DNA from: Granulosicoccus sp.
GTDB lineage: Bacteria > Pseudomonadota > Gammaproteobacteria > Granulosicoccales > Granulosicoccaceae
DNA: 54,086 nucleotides
NCBI GenBank assembly: GCA_023301795.1
Contig: JALZVU010000303.1
Span: 1 to 54,086 of the forward strand
Direction: 5' to 3'
Shown: one piece after another, positions 32,465-52,437 of the stretch
How positions within the stretch are numbered: position 1 is the stretch's first letter
Layout of the letters: every line of letters begins with the position of its first letter
Translations under genes and position numbers: made by a program
Notes under the pieces: model-generated
The model's input: only the letters and a program-made list of their open reading frames with translations
Database searches by the model: none
Told to the model about the DNA's origin: nothing

Positions 32465-32646
32465 AAGAGACGCAACAAGTTGCCAACGGGCAATAAGGAG
32501 ACGCCGCTGACGAACTGGCGAGTGCAAAAATTGGGTGACTTCATGAAATATCCGGGCTGGTATCCGGCATAGTATACGGTGAACACCCCGTAACATCGCT
32601 ATTCCCGGCCAGCGTTCTGGCGTCTGATAACCTATGGATTGATTTG

Positions 32647-34059
32647 ATGAAACTCACCAGTTTTGGCGCAGCACAAGAAGTGACTGGCTCATGTCACTTG
32701 ATTGAACTTGATGGAGTCAAGGTGCTTTTTGACTGTGGCCTGATTCAGGGTCGATCCAAGGATGAACTACGCAATCACGACCCCTTCCCGTTTAACCCGG
32801 CTGAACTGGATGCAGTGGTACTCAGCCATGCTCATATTGACCACTGTGGACGTCTGCCTATCCTGCTTGATCAAGGATATACCGGCAAGATATACACGCA
32901 TGCCGCCACCTGCGATCTAGTCAACATCCTGCTAAAGGACTCTGCCTATCTAAACGCTCGTGATGTTGAGTACCGCAACAAAAAACGCCAGCGCGCTGGC
33001 AAAAAACTTCTGACGCCTCTTTATGATCAAAGAGACGTTGAAACGACTCTGGACCGGCTGCAAGCTGTGCCCTACGAGGAGTCAGTACGCGTGGCCCCTG
33101 GAGTGAGCATCAGATTGTTCGATGCCGGACACATCATAGGATCATCGATGGTGGAGATCACTCTGGTACAGGGCGATCACACGCGCGTGGTGGTCTTCAG
33201 CGGTGATTTGGGCCATCGTGGTTCGCCCATTTTACGTGATTTCAGCTACCTGAAAAAAGCCGACCTTGTGCTGATGGAAAGCACCTACGGTAACCGGCTA
33301 CATCGCGACTGGTCGGAAACGCTAACCGAAGTCCAGGACATTGCCAGCGCACTGAGCAGTGTTCGCGGCAATATCCTTATTCCGGCTTTTTCAGTAGGCC
33401 GCAGCCAGATGATTCTCTACACCATGGCACGCTATTTCAAAGAATGGGATCTGGATCGATGGCAAATTTTTCTGGACAGCCCCATGGCTATCCGCGCCAG
33501 CGAGGTCTATCTGAACCACATTGCGCTATATGACGAAGAGGCTGCGGCGTTTTATAAAAAGAACGGCCCCTTGCTGTCCATGCCTAATCTGAAATTCTCT
33601 CAAACAGCCGATGAATCCCGGGCAATCAATAAAATGGCATCGGGTGCAATCGTGATTGCAGGCAGTGGCATGTGCACAGGAGGCAGAATAATGCATCATT
33701 TGAAGCATAATTTGTGGCGTAGCGATGCGCATGTCATCATTTCTGGCTATCAATCTCCCGGAGGATTGGGACGCAAACTGGTCGATGGTAAAAGCTCGGT
33801 ACGAATCTGGGGCGATCAGATCAAGGTGCGGGCCAAAATTCATACTATTGGCGGATTGTCGGCTCACGCTGACCAGCAAGGCCTGATGGATTGGTACGAC
33901 CACTTTGAAGGACGTCCTCCTGCATTGCTGGTACACGGCGAAGAGAAGGCCATGAAAGTGCTCTCAGGCAAAATGCACGATGAGTTCGGTGCACGGGTAC
34001 GGAGCGCTGCGCCGGGCAAATCAACCGATTTGCTGGCGCTCGAAAAATTTGGCCAATAA
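32647..34059 (+). CDS. Metallo-beta-lactamase/beta-CASP RNase-like protein
   Basis: A 470-residue MBL-fold hydrolase with beta-CASP and RMMBL parts, related to CPSF-type RNA endonucleases. The zinc motif SHAHIDHCGRLP is intact, with further ligands in DAGHIIGS and VFSGDLGHRG. Beta-CASP features are LMESTYGNRLH, IPAFSVGRSQ, the SGMCTGGRIMHHL block and the final GGLSAHADQQGLMDW. Predicted to be a cytoplasmic RNase or other phosphodiesterase. The ATG at 32647 directly follows an in-frame TTG; ATG is preferred. It diverges from rlmKL, so both may act on RNA. Confidence 0.9.
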   Translation: MKLTSFGAAQEVTGSCHLIELDGVKVLFDCGLIQGRSKDELRNHDPFPFNPAELDAVVLSHAHIDHCGRLPILLDQGYTGKIYTHAATCDLVNILLKDSAYLNARDVEYRNKKRQRAGKKLLTPLYDQRDVETTLDRLQAVPYEESVRVAPGVSIRLFDAGHIIGSSMVEITLVQGDHTRVVVFSGDLGHRGSPILRDFSYLKKADLVLMESTYGNRLHRDWSETLTEVQDIASALSSVRGNILIPAFSVGRSQMILYTMARYFKEWDLDRWQIFLDSPMAIRASEVYLNHIALYDEEAAAFYKKNGPLLSMPNLKFSQTADESRAINKMASGAIVIAGSGMCTGGRIMHHLKHNLWRSDAHVIISGYQSPGGLGRKLVDGKSSVRIWGDQIKVRAKIHTIGGLSAHADQQGLMDWYDHFEGRPPALLVHGEEKAMKVLSGKMHDEFGARVRSAAPGKSTDLLALEKFGQ

Positions 34060-34212: not shown

Positions 34213-35871
34213 ATGAGTAGTGAAGAAAGAGAATCGATGGAGTTCGACGTTGTCGTGGTCGGCGCTGGCCCTGCAGGCTTGTCCACGGCCTGCAGGCTCA
34301 TGCAGATTGCTCAAGAGAATGAACAGGAAATCAGCGTTGTCGTCCTCGAAAAAGGCTCAGAGGTAGGTGCGCACATCCTCTCAGGTGCTGTTATTGAGCC
34401 TCGCGCACTGGACGAACTTTTCCCTGACTGGAAAGACAAGGACGCGCCACTCAATACGGCTGTCACCCGCGACGACATTCTGTTTTTTACAAGCCCTGGA
34501 ACCTCCATCAAAATGCCTGGCTTTCTGTCGCCTAAAACCATGCACAACCACGGCAACTATGTCGCAAGCCTTGGCAATCTGACACGCTGGTTAGGCGAAC
34601 AGGCTGAAGCACTGGGAGTGGAAATTTTTCCAGGCTTTGCAGCCTCTGAGATTTTGTACCATGACGACGGCAGTATCAAAGGCGTAGCAACCGGTGACAT
34701 GGGGCTGGACGTCAATGGCGAGCCCAAAGATGGACATGAAAGGGGCATGGAGTTGCACGCCAAGTACACCGTATTTGCCGAAGGCTGCCGTGGTCATCTT
34801 GGAAAACGACTTATTAGCCAGTTCAAGCTGGATGAAGGAAAATCGCCGCAACATTACGGCATCGGGTTGAAAGAGCTATGGCAGATCGACCCTGAAAAAC
34901 ACGAGGCAGGTGTTGTCTTGCATGGAGCAGGTTGGCCTTTGTCAGAGACAAATACCACGGGCGGCGGGTTCATGTACCACCTGGAAAATAATCAGGTGGT
35001 GGTTGGCCTCATTATCGATCTTAACTACTCCAATCCGCACTTGAGCACGTTTGATGAGTTTCAGCGATTCAAAACTCACCCTGCCATAAAGAGCGTACTC
35101 GAAGGTGGCGAAAGAATCAGTTATGGCGCTCGCGCTATCGTCAAAGGCGGACTCAATTCTCTTCCCAAAATGAGCATGCCCGGTGCGTTGTTAATCGGTT
35201 GCGATGCAGGAACGCTCAATTTTGCCAAGCTCAAGGGCACTCATATGGCCATGAAATCAGGCATGGTTGCCGCCGAAACCATCGCCCAGGCGTTGGCAGC
35301 GGATCTGTCGGGCACAGAGCTCACCGAGTACGACGAGGCTTATATGAACAGTTGGGCTGGTGATGAGCTCAAGACATCCAAAAACTGGGGACCAGTACTT
35401 CACAAGTTCGGCATGTACCTAGGTGGAGCCTATAACTTTCTCGATCAAAACTTTTTTGGTGGAAAGCTTCCGTTCAACTTTCGTGATGAAAAACCAGACC
35501 ATGATTGTCTGATGCCTGCCAGCACCAGCTTCCAGCCCAAGTACCCGAGGCCTGATGGCAAAGTGAGCTTTGACAAGTCATCGTCAGTGTTTCTGTCCAG
35601 CACAAACCATGAAGACAACCAGCCAGTTCACCTGCAGCTAGCTGATCCTTCAATACCTATTCAGGTTAACTTACCGCGCTACGCTGAGCCTGCGCAGCGT
35701 TATTGCCCGGTGGGTGTTTATGAGGTAGTGATAGAGGACGAGGTACCGCGCTTCCAGATCAATTCGCAAAACTGCATCCATTGCAAAACGTGCGATATCA
35801 AAGATCCTAGCCAAAACATCACCTGGGTGGTGCCTGAAGGTGGCGGTGGTCCGAATTATCCGAACATGTAA
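34213..35871 (+). CDS. Electron transfer flavoprotein-ubiquinone oxidoreductase
   Basis: A 552-residue ETF-QO, the membrane-bound enzyme that passes electrons from reduced electron transfer flavoprotein to ubiquinone, linking acyl-CoA and other dehydrogenases to respiration. The FAD motif VVGAGPAGLSTACRL is near 16-30. The C-terminal 4Fe-4S cysteines are those of RYCPVGVYE and QNCIHCKTCDI, and the end GGGGPNYPNM is typical. AGGA lies 9 nt before the ATG. ETF alpha and beta genes are not in the window. It ends before a strong bidirectional terminator. Confidence 0.96.
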   Translation: MSSEERESMEFDVVVVGAGPAGLSTACRLMQIAQENEQEISVVVLEKGSEVGAHILSGAVIEPRALDELFPDWKDKDAPLNTAVTRDDILFFTSPGTSIKMPGFLSPKTMHNHGNYVASLGNLTRWLGEQAEALGVEIFPGFAASEILYHDDGSIKGVATGDMGLDVNGEPKDGHERGMELHAKYTVFAEGCRGHLGKRLISQFKLDEGKSPQHYGIGLKELWQIDPEKHEAGVVLHGAGWPLSETNTTGGGFMYHLENNQVVVGLIIDLNYSNPHLSTFDEFQRFKTHPAIKSVLEGGERISYGARAIVKGGLNSLPKMSMPGALLIGCDAGTLNFAKLKGTHMAMKSGMVAAETIAQALAADLSGTELTEYDEAYMNSWAGDELKTSKNWGPVLHKFGMYLGGAYNFLDQNFFGGKLPFNFRDEKPDHDCLMPASTSFQPKYPRPDGKVSFDKSSSVFLSSTNHEDNQPVHLQLADPSIPIQVNLPRYAEPAQRYCPVGVYEVVIEDEVPRFQINSQNCIHCKTCDIKDPSQNITWVVPEGGGGPNYPNM

Positions 35872-35947: not shown

Positions 35948-35976
35948 AAAAGGGCTGGCATTTGCCAGCCCTTTTT
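35948..35976. terminator. Bidirectional rho-independent terminator
   Basis: AAAA, then GGGCTGGC, loop ATTT, GCCAGCCC and TTTTT. The 8-bp GC-rich stem is perfect, with a T-run after it on either strand. It sits between the convergent ETF-QO and Asn/Arg-rich protein genes and should stop both transcripts. Confidence 0.95.
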
Positions 35977-35982
35977 AATGGG

Positions 35983-37386
35983 TCATTCTGAATCGGCTGG
36001 TGGTTTTGCTTTAGCGACTCGAGGAGCTCGTTTGGCTTTGGGCTTGTCTGCTGCCGCAACGTCGGCTTTTGGAGCAGAATCTGTTTTCACTGCGCTCTTG
36101 GTCGCTACTTTCTTAGCCACCTTTTTTGCGACTGCTGCACGCGGCTTTTTAGCGGGAGCATCAGCAGCACCATCAGTAGAAGGCGGTGCGGCTGCAGAGG
36201 CTGGCTTGCGAGCGCGTGTCGCAGGTTTAGCTTGAGCGGGAGCTGCATCGCTTGCCGCTGCGGTTGGTGGCTCGACTCTAGGCTTGCGCGGCGCGCGTGG
36301 CTTTTTGATCGGTGCCTCACCCACGTTTGCCGCAGCTGTTTCTGTGTGACCCGTAGCCTCTGCTGCAGCGCGTGGCTTGCGTACAGCCCTTGGTCTTTGC
36401 GTAGATGTACTGGGAGTTGCAGTCGAATTTACGGGCGCTGAGGCCACAGATGAGTTCGACGTATCCGGGCTCACTGGTTGATTAGCAACGTTCGAGGCCG
36501 TGCGCTCACCGGTAGCAACAGTCGTGGAAGACTGATCGTTGTTACTGCCTTCCGAATTGGGTCTGTTGCGGTTCTGATTACGATTCTGGTTGCGGTTGTT
36601 ACGATTCTGATTTCGGTTTTGTCCGCGATTTTGGTTCCGATTGTTTCGGTTTTGCGGATTGCCTTCGCCTTGGGCCGCAGCCCCTTGGTTGCTACCTTGA
36701 GGGTTACCTTGCGATGGCTGGTTGCGATTGTTGTTATTGTTGCGCGATTGCGGATTAGCATTGCGCGGCTGCCGACCCTGAGCGTTTCGCCCCTGATTGC
36801 GACCTCCTGGTTGCGCACTTCGGTTACGCGGATTGCCACGACCTTTGCCACGGTTGCTGTTACCGCGCCCGGCGGCACCCATAACCAGGCTGCCAACCTG
36901 ATAAGGATCTTCCATACCAATCAGGTTGCTGTCTGAGGGAAAACGGTTGTTGACGTTACAGTGATCTCGATTACCAAAGCTGTCGTCTTCGTTTTCCACC
37001 ACGGCCGATACTTCGGGCAAGGCCCGGTTACCGATATTGTCCATTTCTTCGGTGATTTCGCGCGGCGGGCGAAGGGCTCTATTGCCTTTCTCAATCCGAT
37101 TACCCGCGTTGTCATCGTCGCGGGCGCGCCCGCGATTTTGCTGACGGCCTTTGCGCCTATTGTTGTTATTCTTGTTTCGGTTGTTATTGTTCGGGTTGTT
37201 GTTATTCGCATTCGGGTTGCCACCGCCTTCGGCACGCTGACCTGCGGGATTTCTGCCCCTGCCACGTCTTTGTCCATTGCGTCGCGCACCTTCGCCACCC
37301 GAGTCGCTACGGGCTTGCCCCGAACCACCAGAACCTGAATTGTTCGCAGGGTTGGGTTGTGAATCTTGAATATCGCTGTTCGTCAT
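35983..37386 (-). CDS. Asn/Arg-rich disordered protein with H1-like tail
   Basis: A 467-residue, strongly low-complexity protein I do not recognise. Residues ~1-95 are Gly/Asn/Arg-rich; ~95-170 hold one more ordinary segment (RPPREITEEMDNIGNRALP to MEDPYQVGSLVMGAAG). Residues ~170-285 are almost wholly Asn, Arg, Gln and Gly (NRNQNR-type repeats). The C-terminal ~150 residues are Ala/Lys/Pro-rich like histone H1 or AlgP tails (KKPRAAVAKKVAKKVA). It has no signal peptide, membrane helix or enzyme motif. Synonymous codons (five Arg and both Asn codons) are mixed through the repeats, so the protein sequence seems selected. Binding to RNA or DNA, or condensate formation, is inferred only. Confidence 0.78.
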   Translation of the reverse strand: MTNSDIQDSQPNPANNSGSGGSGQARSDSGGEGARRNGQRRGRGRNPAGQRAEGGGNPNANNNNPNNNNRNKNNNNRRKGRQQNRGRARDDDNAGNRIEKGNRALRPPREITEEMDNIGNRALPEVSAVVENEDDSFGNRDHCNVNNRFPSDSNLIGMEDPYQVGSLVMGAAGRGNSNRGKGRGNPRNRSAQPGGRNQGRNAQGRQPRNANPQSRNNNNNRNQPSQGNPQGSNQGAAAQGEGNPQNRNNRNQNRGQNRNQNRNNRNQNRNQNRNRPNSEGSNNDQSSTTVATGERTASNVANQPVSPDTSNSSVASAPVNSTATPSTSTQRPRAVRKPRAAAEATGHTETAAANVGEAPIKKPRAPRKPRVEPPTAAASDAAPAQAKPATRARKPASAAAPPSTDGAADAPAKKPRAAVAKKVAKKVATKSAVKTDSAPKADVAAADKPKAKRAPRVAKAKPPADSE

Positions 37387-49202: not shown

Positions 49203-51104
49203 ATGAATCAACCGCTTAAGCAACCAGATAATACACCATCAGAACCACAGGCCCAAGCGCTGGTTGATACGATAAATCGTATTCAAGCCGTTATTGAATT
49301 TGATATGGATGGTGTGGTACTTGATGCCAACGATAATTTCCTTAAAGCGCTTGGTTATTCACTTAACGAGATTCAGGGCAACCATCATCGGCTATTTTGT
49401 GAAGAGTCTTTTCACAGTTCTGAGGAGTATTCGCTCTTCTGGAAGAGTATTGCAAACGGAGAAAGCCAGGCGGGAGAATTCAAACGGATACGCAAAGATG
49501 GAAGCGAAATCTGGATTCTCGCATCGTACAATCCCGTATTCAACTCCGACGGTGTTGCATACAAAACCATCAAATTTGCTACAGACATCACAGCATCCAA
49601 AATACAATCAGCTGTCACAGACGGCAAGATAGCGGCTATCAACCGCGCCCAAGCTATGATCGAATTTGAACTGGATGGTACTGTGATCAGCGCAAATGAC
49701 AACTTCCTCACAACGCTAGGTTACGAGGCCAAGGACGTAGTTGGCAAACATCATAGTATCTTTTGCGAAAACAACTACTCTTCGACACCTGAATATACTG
49801 AGTTCTGGGAACGCCTCCGCTCAGGCACATTTGACCAAGGCGAATACAAGCGCATTAAAAAAGACGGAAGTGACGTCTGGATCAACGCCTCGTACAACCC
49901 TATTCTGGATGCTTCAGGCAAACCTTATCGGGTTGTCAAATTTGCAAGTGATATTACTGATCAGAAACGCACAAGCCTTGAGCATAAGGGCCAGATCGAT
50001 GCAATCAACCGAGCACAGGCGGTCATCGAATTCACCCTTGATGGAGAAATCATTTCAGCCAACGAACCATTTCTGGCCACGACGGATTACTCACTCAGTG
50101 AAATCGTTGGGCAACATCATCGTATTTTTTGCACAAAAGATCACAGTTCTTCTGAGCAATACAAGACTTTCTGGGACAATCTTAGAAATGGCAAATTTGA
50201 GTCTGGGCGATATCAACGATTGAGCAAAACCGGGAGAACCATCTGGTTACAGGCGACTTACAACCCTATCTTTGATTTGAACGGGAATGTGATCAAGGTT
50301 GTTAAGTTTGCTACCGATATAAGCACGCAGGTAGCGGTAGAGGAGTCAGTCACCCTCATTGCAGAGACATTCGCCGTCAACACAAGACAGATTGCAGACC
50401 AAGCTACGGATGTTGCTGGCGGTGCACAATCTCTAGGGGCAACCACCGAGCAAATGAACGCCTCAGTAGAAGAACTTAGCGCATCGATCGACTCTATCGC
50501 AGAAAACAGCCGCGAAGCAGACAACGTTGCCAAGCATACTCAACATGAGGCAGATCTTGGTTCAAAGGCTATTGAGAGATCCATTGAGTCTATGGAGTTA
50601 ATCAACAAGTCATCAGAAGAAATTGCTGAGATTGTAAAGGTCATTAGTGAAATCGCCAGCCAGACAAACCTGCTTGCCTTCAACGCGGCTATAGAAGCGG
50701 CGCGAGCCGGCGAGCACGGGCTCGGCTTTTCCGTTGTAGCCGATGAGGTGCGAAAACTGGCTGAGCGTTCCTCCCAGGCAACCAAAGAGATCACCAAGCT
50801 GATCAACGAATCTGTCAAACGTGTGGTGCAAGGCGGAGAAATCTCCAAGGAAGCCGCAACAGCATTTGGGAAAATTGTGGACGGTGTATCTAAAACAACC
50901 TTCTCAATTTCTGAAATTTCAACAGCCGCACAGGAACAGCAGACTGCGGCACGTGATGTGAGTGATGCCATTCAACAAATAGCCACGGCAACCGAAACAT
51001 CCGCATTTGCTTCAGACTCTATCGCCACTGCAACCAACACCCTACTGGAAGGGGCAGAAAATCTGAAATCTGAAATAGAAAAATTTGCTGAAAAGGCCGA
51101 ATAG
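49203..51104 (+). CDS. Soluble chemoreceptor with three tandem PAS domains
   Basis: A 633-residue methyl-accepting chemotaxis protein with no transmembrane segment and no HAMP domain. Three PAS/PAC repeats begin at residues 22, 144 and 266, exactly 122 residues apart. Each has INR-x-QA-x-IEF, HH-x-[IL]-FC and a YNPIxD-like block. The signalling domain (~385-633) has the hairpin tip [22 protein letters not shown]. The layout recalls BdlA and Aer-like cytoplasmic sensors of redox, oxygen or metabolites; the His/Cys residues could suit heme but this is not shown. No NWETF-type C-terminal tether is present. cheR follows after 2 nt. Confidence 0.95.
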
Positions 51105-51106
51105 CT

Positions 51107-51961
51107 GTGATCCACAATCTACCGCCAGTGATAGATGATCAGTGCTTTACCAAACTGACTGAAATGGTTCATGGCTTAACCGGAATCACCATAAAACCAG
51201 AACGCAGAGCCATGCTGGAGGGACGTGTAGCAAGACGATTGCGCGCCCTAGAGATACCTGACTTCGCCTCTTATATCCGTTATGTAAACGCGACTACCAG
51301 CGAGCAGGAAGCTCTCGTAAACACCATAACAACTAATGAAACATATTTTTACAGAACACCACGGATTTGGGAATATATCAGCGAGAGTTTTCTATCTAAC
51401 TGGCATGCACAGAACCAAGGAAACACACTCAACATCTGGTCGGCAGCATCCTCTACAGGTGAAGAAGCGCATACGCTTGGTGTATTGATGCAAGCTTACA
51501 AAGACAAGACTGTAGGGTTTGATTATCGAATAACGGGCACTGATATAGACTCATCCGTTATAGAACGTGCAACAACAGGACTCTACACTGGCAGAGCCAT
51601 CGAACGGTTTAGAAACGAGAAGCCGGTGTTGTTTGCACGCTACATGGCAGGCAACGATGTTAATGGGTATAGGGTTGCGTCAAATATCAAGAAGAATATC
51701 CAATTCAAACATCTTAATCTGTTCAAGCCCGGTACGGTCGATATCAAATATTCGCTAGTTCTGCTCCGAAACGTTCTCATCTATTTTACAAAAGAAGATA
51801 AAGAGCGCGTTATGCAAACAGTGCATCAGCGCCTAGTCAGCTCTGGGGTTGTCATTATCGGTGAGTCTGAATCACTCAATAATCTGTCCTCTAACTTTAC
51901 TACCATCACGCCCACTATTTACCAACGCTGTGATGCAGCTAAAGGAGCGAAAGCTGCGTGA
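51107..51961 (+). CDS. cheR: Chemoreceptor methyltransferase CheR
   Basis: A 284-residue CheR that methylates glutamates of chemoreceptors with S-adenosylmethionine. The N-terminal helical domain is followed by TNETYFYRTP, the SAM motif IWSAASSTGEEAHTLG, and VLLRNVLIYF near 220. The start is GTG, 2 nt after the MCP stop, and the stop overlaps cheD (GTGA). Product and substrate are thus coded side by side. Confidence 0.95.
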   Translation: MIHNLPPVIDDQCFTKLTEMVHGLTGITIKPERRAMLEGRVARRLRALEIPDFASYIRYVNATTSEQEALVNTITTNETYFYRTPRIWEYISESFLSNWHAQNQGNTLNIWSAASSTGEEAHTLGVLMQAYKDKTVGFDYRITGTDIDSSVIERATTGLYTGRAIERFRNEKPVLFARYMAGNDVNGYRVASNIKKNIQFKHLNLFKPGTVDIKYSLVLLRNVLIYFTKEDKERVMQTVHQRLVSSGVVIIGESESLNNLSSNFTTITPTIYQRCDAAKGAKAA

Positions 51962-52437
51962 GTCTGAAACTGATAAACGTTCATATCGGAGAGGTAAAAA
52001 CTGGAAAAGGTCAACAAAAGTTGCATACCATTCTGGGGTCTTGCATTGGTATAGCCCTACTGTGGCCTAAGCATGAAATCTACGGCCTTGCTCATTGCCT
52101 ATTACCAAAAGCGCCAGACGGGCTTCTTGACGAAATGACTGAGGGCGGCCGGTATGTCGATCAAGCCATCGAGTCACTCACACAAATGATGAGGATTACT
52201 CATTACAAGGATATCCGGGCGGTGGTTGCCGGCGGTGCCAATATGACTCAGCCCGACACACCCTCACCCGAGAAACTTGTGGGACATCAAAATGCCTGCA
52301 GTGCACTCGAGGGTTTGCGTTTGAGAAAGATCATTGTTGTTCATCAAGACACTGGGGGACATGCTGGGCGCAAGATGTCCATTGCCTGCGAGTCGGGTAC
52401 CTTTGATATTAATACTATTCCACGCATCGCGGCGTAG
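51958..52437 (+). CDS. cheD: Chemoreceptor glutamine deamidase CheD
   Basis: A 159-residue CheD that deamidates receptor glutamines to methylatable glutamates. The catalytic Cys is in TILGSCIGIAL, the His in GLAHCLLP, and the Thr region is VHQDTGGHAGRKM. GTG start in a 4-nt overlap with cheR. The triple-CheW gene starts 9 nt after its stop. Confidence 0.94.
   Translation: MSLKLINVHIGEVKTGKGQQKLHTILGSCIGIALLWPKHEIYGLAHCLLPKAPDGLLDEMTEGGRYVDQAIESLTQMMRITHYKDIRAVVAGGANMTQPDTPSPEKLVGHQNACSALEGLRLRKIIVVHQDTGGHAGRKMSIACESGTFDINTIPRIAA

Follow-up and report, generated by a model that had tools for sequence, protein, structure and literature searches.

In bacteria, RNA-decay complexes are usually portrayed as assemblies on an enzyme's disordered tail, with that of RNase E as the foremost case. 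Ala/Lys/Pro-rich tails of the histone H1 type are found in other bacterial proteins (e.g., AlgP, PhaF), and eukaryotic RGG and prion-like proteins are of low complexity and rich in Asn, Gln, Gly and Arg. Raynal and Carpousis are said to have found in 1999 that E. coli poly(A) polymerase I (PcnB) binds DEAD-box helicases, and the Pfam text for PF12627, a PcnB domain, reads 'Probable RNA and SrmB- binding site of polymerase A'. According to two papers, the C-terminal scaffold of gammaproteobacterial RNase E is disordered and carries RNQ-rich AR segments together with short conserved islands or linear motifs (PMC4435900, PMC11964227); in the former paper, RhlE and the poly(A) polymerase of E. coli are also both listed as associated with RNase E (PMC4435900).

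We report here that a spaced D-x-x-GNR/GNRALPE element of a free-standing 467-amino-acid (467-aa) protein is also present in the tails of some PcnB proteins. The gene lies in a window (i.e., the whole stretch of DNA analysed) of 54,086 nucleotides from a genome of Granulosicoccus, a marine bacterium. A literature search gave, among the matches listed, no paper on the 467-aa protein or its motif.

The gene and the composition of its product

Conservation of the reading frame in 11 close genomes argues that the gene (Table 1) is real, and a GGTGA-like ribosome site was found upstream of the start codon in several orthologues. The hairpin between this gene and the ETF-QO gene has A/U pairs at the end of its stem and is likely a two-way terminator; it was absent from the 3 sites found by a consensus terminator scan (shuffle mean 3.7). 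On its other side, the gene is flanked by divergent genes for a SulP-type transporter and a universal-stress-type protein. Two genes off, a beta-CASP/RMMBL ribonuclease gene (PF10996, PF07521; window 32644-34059), whose best NCBIfam match was a Cas14 MBL model far under its cut-off, adjoins the ETF-QO gene. The same neighbourhood was found in genome G024, while genomes G018 and G003 have an rlmKL-like gene there instead. Farther along the window (49203-52437), translations read by eye indicated a chemoreceptor with PAS repeats and, after it, CheR-like and CheD-like proteins.

Table 1. Positions in the window of the gene, the parts of its product and neighbouring features
Feature	Position	Strand	Remarks
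Gene of the 467-aa, apparently intrinsically disordered protein	35983..37386	minus	ORF, ATG at the 37386 end; orthologues in 13/27 genus genomes
N-terminal basic N/R/G-rich arm, residues 1-89	37120..37386	minus	net charge per residue about +0.12
Conserved acidic island, residues 90-168	36883..37119	minus	net charge per residue about -0.10; all three Phe/Tyr
First D-x-x-GNR copy, DNAGNR, residues 92-97	37096..37113	minus	
Second copy, DNIGNRALPE, residues 116-125	37012..37041	minus	identical in 11/11 close orthologues; common to PcnB tails
Third copy, DSFGNRD, residues 135-141	36964..36984	minus	
NNRFPSDSNLIGMEDP, residues 146-161	36904..36951	minus	NNRFPSDSNL invariant in 13/13 orthologues
Arg/Asn/Gln-rich arm, residues 169-275	36562..36882	minus	RNQNRGQNRNQNR run within residues 250-275
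Ala/Lys/Pro tail, residues 331-467	35986..36396	minus	KPRAPRK (within 36277-36306) invariant in 11/11 close orthologues
ETF-QO gene	34213-35871	plus	Pfam; convergent with the 467-aa gene
Hairpin between the ETF-QO and 467-aa genes	35948..35975	.	-22.2 kcal/mol, z -5.4, minus strand folded

Asn, Arg, Gln and Gly together make up 42.6% of the 467-aa protein, as compared to a maximum of 24.4% among the 35 other window ORFs taken as genes, and hydrophobic residues represent 8.1%, as compared to a minimum of 28.4% among the same ORFs. RN/NR pairs occur 36 times (shuffle mean 17.2), a count that was reached in 0 of 1000 shuffles, and the Asn/Arg runs thus go beyond what composition alone would give. 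RNQ/QNR/NRN triplets (22; shuffle mean 2.3) and KPR-type sites (8; shuffle mean 0.2) were also more frequent than in shuffled sequences, and RGG/GGR was not enriched (1; shuffle mean 0.9). A first-pass annotation, made by a model from the letters of this stretch, had described the protein as almost wholly Asn/Arg/Gln/Gly runs plus an Ala/Lys/Pro tail and had compared it to RGG proteins. The runs and the tail are real, "almost wholly" is too strong for a protein with 14.6% Ala, and the RGG comparison fails on the counts above; a composition of the nucleic-acid-binding kind is supported. Its argument that mixed synonymous codons speak against recent slippage also agrees with our data, as Asn is encoded by AAT and AAC at 0.40 and 0.60 and Arg by all six codons, a usage like that of 12 other window genes when pooled, and Tandem Repeats Finder reported few tandem repeats in the DNA (three arrays of 2.0-2.1 copies each).

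Conservation and selection along the protein

A protein search among 57 relatives gave 13 matches, i.e., the window genome itself, ten genomes at 80-91% identity and two with partial matches (the divergent pair G003 and G018). A profile search of 48 genomes of the family (E 0.01) gave 15 matches, representing the 13 orthologue genomes plus G028 and G002; these last two matches fall outside the gene, both in PcnB (E 3.3e-4 and 0.0017, respectively). In a sample of 369 genomes of the class, the profile showed no credible match outside the genus at E 0.1, and matches in G078 (E 0.016; receptor-like frame) and G249 (E 0.054; frame broken by stops) were rejected as noise. In a sample of 398 genomes of the phylum, the window genome was the sole match of profile A2 at E 0.01, with up to 13 candidates scored in each genome. 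As far as these family, class and phylum samples reach, the gene is lineage-specific. Borderline A2 matches (E 0.24-0.6) occurred in G058, G033, G012:C26 and G067; among the inspected matches in G058, G012:C26 and G067, only that in G067 had a GNR copy. A 336-aa frame with one NDELGNRIVP copy was observed in G067, a genome of another genus of the family (L251, G067:C351).

The first-pass annotation had called this the least explained gene of the window, and the 467-aa protein matched no family in Pfam or NCBIfam at E 1 or in PHROGs at E 0.1. Neither PDB chains (E 1, queried with the 13-row alignment) nor plasmid records (E 1, queried with the island) gave a match, and tblastn of 15 stretches beyond the ETF-QO gene (from <1 kb in some cases to about 10 kb) in genomes without the gene found neither SulP nor the island. 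The pattern D[DN]xGNRAxP matched the gene in G000 (the window genome) and G014 among the 369 class genomes, and a further match read GNS (reversed control, 3). A looser D/N-D/N-x-GNR pattern gave 2 matches in the window genome, one of them in the 467-aa gene; as its reversed control also gave 2, this pattern is too loose for use.

The single island of normal sequence that had been placed at about residues 95-170 corresponds to residues 90-168, the conserved part of the protein, and the basic-acidic-basic charge pattern was kept in 11/11 close orthologues. In the divergent pair, the order of the parts has changed, with the Ala/Lys/Pro part first and the Arg-rich part last; NNRFPSDSNL is identical and GNRALPE is absent. 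We compared eight orthologue pairs for dN/dS, and both island and arms could be estimated in five (G008/G020, G006/G016, G012/G019, G019/G025 and G024/G025). For these five pairs, dN/dS was 0-0.03 in the island and 0.07-0.19 in the arms, values that are rough as several dS exceed 1. The three pairs that include the window gene were mostly saturated (island dN/dS 0.035 in one, N-arm dN/dS 0.39 in another, no value for the rest); their dN was 0.05-0.11 in the island as compared to 0.39-0.88 in the arms. These contrasts indicate that what is kept in the arms is their composition and, in the island, nearly every residue; the selection on the protein that had been suggested earlier is apparent in both. 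It is hardly credible, on the other hand, that a largely neutral low-complexity protein was kept by accident, with slippage and mutation bias setting its composition: arm lengths do vary greatly, as this would predict (21-91 gapped C-arm columns between the members of the eight pairs), but the low dN/dS in five pairs, the charge pattern conserved in all close orthologues and the scarcity of tandem repeats in the DNA are at odds with it.

AlphaFold2, with a 13-sequence alignment, gave the 467-aa protein a mean pLDDT of 44.8, with no residue of at least 70. The protein thus is apparently wholly disordered, as had been proposed, a shallow alignment such as this one being no proof of disorder. Among the blocks of the model, the island reached a pLDDT of 49-62 and the highest value (63) was that of the block around KPRAPRK (residues 361-370). 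As no confident structure was predicted for the conserved island, it looks like a set of linear docking motifs rather than a domain, i.e., three D-x-x-GNR copies (one GNRALPE) followed by NNRFPSDSNL.

It appears improbable that the protein binds DNA or the nucleoid in the style of AlgP or PhaF, with an Ala/Lys/Pro tail that would coat DNA or tether something to the nucleoid and an island that would dock. The tail itself is real, as the excess of KPR-type sites attests, and KPRAPRK is both invariant in the close orthologues and part of the ten-residue block with the top mean pLDDT. However, no Pfam domain was found at E 1, and the Ala/Lys/Pro part of the divergent pair is N-terminal, the whole part before the island having little net charge (+0.00 and -0.06 per residue). 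This shift and low charge leave the island and the Arg-rich arm as the constant features instead. Moreover, the links from motif and gene context, given below, lead to RNA enzymes.

A spaced motif common to the 467-aa protein and PcnB tails

In both G002 and G028, the profile matched a PcnB protein (TIGR01942) that has a long extension. Among PcnB tails from 38 genomes, those of G002, G009, G022 and G026 have pairs of the D-x-x-GNR type that end in GNRA[LIV]P[ED], and PcnB of G028, which belongs to another genus, has DNIGNRAP and DSFGNR at its extreme end, with GNRALPE altered. We scored a set of 79 tails (38 PcnB; 14 RNase E, that of G009 cut by a contig end; 27 RhlE-like) against a profile of the free-standing islands. 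Five PcnB tails ranked on top with 8.4-17.9 bits (next tail, 0.7), as they did without the composition correction of HMMER (16.2-21.3; next, 4.0). Shuffled tails reached the observed score in 0/1000 cases for four of the five and in 2/1000 for G026. A rule of two or more [DE][DENS]-x-GN[RVKQ], which was loosened after the sequences were seen, selected 18 of 92 sequences, i.e., 13/13 free-standing proteins and the five top-scoring PcnB tails, and none of the other 74 tails. In four PcnB tails, the motif pair is 23-25 residues apart, as compared to 24 in the window protein, and both spacings of the latter (24 and 19) fall within a range of 23-25 or 18-21 residues that was likewise set after the sequences were seen. 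At the DNA level, GNRA-x-P-D/E gave 25 matches in the 48 family genomes (reversed-pattern control, 3), with 11 in the 467-aa gene, 4 in PcnB tails and 10 in short or unrelated frames.

When GNRALPE was masked, the scores of the five PcnB tails dropped to between -1.5 and 5.8 bits, and the common signal beyond this heptamer thus appears weak. A reverse profile, made from four PcnB islands, placed eight free-standing proteins on top; the PcnB tail of G018, which has no motif, scored 9.2 as compared to 8.9 for the window protein, and the free-standing proteins of G003 and G018 scored 6.4 and 1.3, the latter within its shuffles. Three RNase E frames (G015, G019 and G006) have a single acidic-x-x-GNR copy, and single GNR triplets occur too; one copy alone therefore means little. 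Taken together, the masked scores, the reverse profile and the RNase E single copies define the common element as a spaced short motif, with a homologous domain unproven.

RNase E and RhlE tails were rejected as origins of the element, the motif pair being found in none of the 14 RNase E and none of the 27 RhlE-like tails read. By eye, the RNase E tails of Granulosicoccus (L158-L171) have RQPS[QE]LK-x-[ST]V[RK]SLA near the C terminus in 10/14 cases, likely a docking motif of their own. The PcnB proteins of G017 (L104) and G005 (L112), with 715 and 700 aa, have Gly/Asn/His/Ser-rich tails without a D-x-x-GNR pair. The window protein, having no Pfam match, does not include the nucleotidyltransferase head and RNA-binding domains of PcnB (PF01743, PF12627) and, judged from its sequence, is not a polymerase.

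The search with the island alone, which the first-pass annotation had recommended, thus led to the motif pair of PcnB tails, and the opinion that the protein resembles RNase E tails in composition only has to be revised, as the same spaced motif was reached in the tails of an RNA enzyme. The gene was rightly singled out as real and odd; its product is more than an unexplained low-complexity protein, as its putative docking island is specific to the lineage and has a motif pair that is found again on PcnB.

A tree of 41 genomes, made from PcnB, RNase E and ETF-QO (1425 columns; sets of 38, 24 and 23 sequences, respectively, many rows partial), grouped the 11 close genomes and G007, a 68% complete genome in which the gene was not found; the divergent pair joins next and four genomes with the PcnB form after it, with a support of 1.00 for the joint clade; G028, with the PcnB form and from another genus, branches outside. 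No genome with both forms was seen: the PcnB tails of 13/13 gene-bearing genomes lack the motif pair, and whole-genome searches with A2 gave one credible place in each. Neither form was found at E 1 in 10/27 genus genomes (G004, G005, G007, G010, G011, G013, G015, G017, G021 and G023), all of which, except G005 and G015, are less than 90% complete; the PcnB tail was read for seven of the ten (all but G010, G011 and G021), with the motif pair in none. The apparent mutual exclusion of the gene and the PcnB-tail motif is suggestive rather than a statistical proof, as it represents few evolutionary events and not 18 independent ones.

In G018 and G003, the gene is located 27 and 67 bases, respectively, downstream of a gene for an RhlE-type DEAD-box helicase on the same strand, and the two genes fill the slot between SulP and ETF-QO. 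For the helicase of G003, the best NCBIfam match was to RhlE, at 595.7 bits as compared to a cut-off of 743, and the G018 helicase is 85% identical to that of G003. In the window clade, RhlE-like genes are located elsewhere. The window genome has two RhlE-like helicases, L217 (G000:C120) and L228 (G000:C113), and two are also present in G008 and G020.

These data also bear on whether the protein is a general RNA chaperone or condensate scaffold unrelated to polyadenylation, with D-x-x-GNR motifs that would bind a common hub (e.g., a ribosomal or RNA-decay protein) and a PcnB motif of independent origin. Short motifs easily arise, the signal beyond GNRALPE is weak, single copies are present in three RNase E frames and ten of the 27 genus genomes have neither form. 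Nevertheless, we regard this explanation as unlikely, given that a common origin or a common partner accounts better than chance for the similar spacing of the pairs in both proteins and for the occurrence of the two forms in separate, neighbouring clades.

A possible adaptor in trans, and comparison with known systems

The explanation that we favour, tentatively and at slightly less than even odds, is that the 467-aa protein is a free-standing, disordered RNA-binding adaptor that would do in trans what the PcnB tail does in cis. From its composition we infer that the protein binds RNA, and the gene context favours RNA rather than DNA as the ligand. Many weak contacts from the basic arms, rich in Arg, Asn and Gln, and from the Lys/Arg/Pro tail would hold RNA, while the D-x-x-GNR motifs (one GNRALPE) and NNRFPSDSNL of the acidic island would dock a protein partner, as suggested by the near-zero dN/dS, the absence of a confident fold and the spacing of the motifs. 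This partner may be common to the 467-aa protein and the PcnB tail, and the adaptor could then gather enzymes of RNA 3'-end polyadenylation or decay, or an RhlE-type helicase, on RNA; a role as a condensate scaffold is possible too. As the same spaced motifs are found in PcnB tails of the sister clade, the free-standing protein probably does the job of that tail in trans.

We counted in favour of the adaptor the profile ranks, the paired motif, the GNRA-x-P-D/E matches, the separate distribution of the two forms, the helicase neighbour, the dN/dS of the island, the lack of a fold and the associations described for E. coli. Counted against it were the weak signal beyond GNRALPE, the less clean reverse profile, the absence of GNRALPE from G003 and G018, the single copies in RNase E, the small number of evolutionary events, the ten genomes with neither form and the location of RhlE-like genes elsewhere in the window clade. 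No hint of the partner came from the tails of RNase E and RhlE or from the model of PcnB. In the AlphaFold2 model of G002 PcnB, the island is likewise without confident structure; intramolecular docking of the island on PcnB was set aside, as residues 452-675 had pLDDT <50, a result with which docking is still compatible in such models.

A further proposal, somewhat speculative and in our view rather doubtful, is that a docking module (paired D-x-x-GNR plus GNRALPE) was passed between the PcnB tail and a free-standing RNA-binding protein, so that part of the genus would scaffold its RNA 3'-end and decay assembly in trans. If this is true, it would suggest that tails of this type can be cut loose and act in trans, which would be an unusual build for an RNA-handling complex. 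DNIGNRALPE, identical in 11/11 close orthologues, represents a small, exact target for the partner and makes the role of a low-complexity protein testable.

Among known systems, the PcnB tails of four neighbouring Granulosicoccus genomes are like the 467-aa protein in their basic N/R/G-rich arms around an acidic stretch, in their paired D-x-x-GNR-type motifs with GNRA[LIV]P[ED] and in their low AlphaFold2 pLDDT. Unlike PcnB, the 467-aa protein has no polymerase and adds a third GNR copy, NNRFPSDSNL and the Ala/Lys/Pro tail. With the RNase E scaffold, as portrayed in the papers cited above, it has in common the disorder, the Arg/Asn/Gln-rich segments of the RNA-binding kind and the short conserved island; however, the RNase E/G catalytic domain (Pfam, NCBIfam) and NDPR, the Pseudomonas form of the PNPase-binding motif, are absent from it, and RNase E of the same genomes has kept its own long tails, without paired islands. 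RALRPPRE was considered as a relative of NDPR and set aside as post hoc, being a mere resemblance to TGRALNDPRE as given in one of these papers (PMC11964227).

The Ala/Lys/Pro-rich tail is, by composition, like those of AlgP and PhaF; unlike in those proteins, it is one part of the 467-aa protein, its position changes in divergent orthologues and, as no Pfam match was found at E 1, it is not accompanied by a phasin domain. As in eukaryotic RGG and prion-like proteins, the sequence is of low complexity and rich in Asn, Gln, Gly and Arg; unlike these, it has one RGG/GGR and three aromatic residues, all inside the island (residues 90-168). Overall, we rate the 467-aa protein as akin to the disordered tails of RNA enzymes with short motifs, here in free-standing form.
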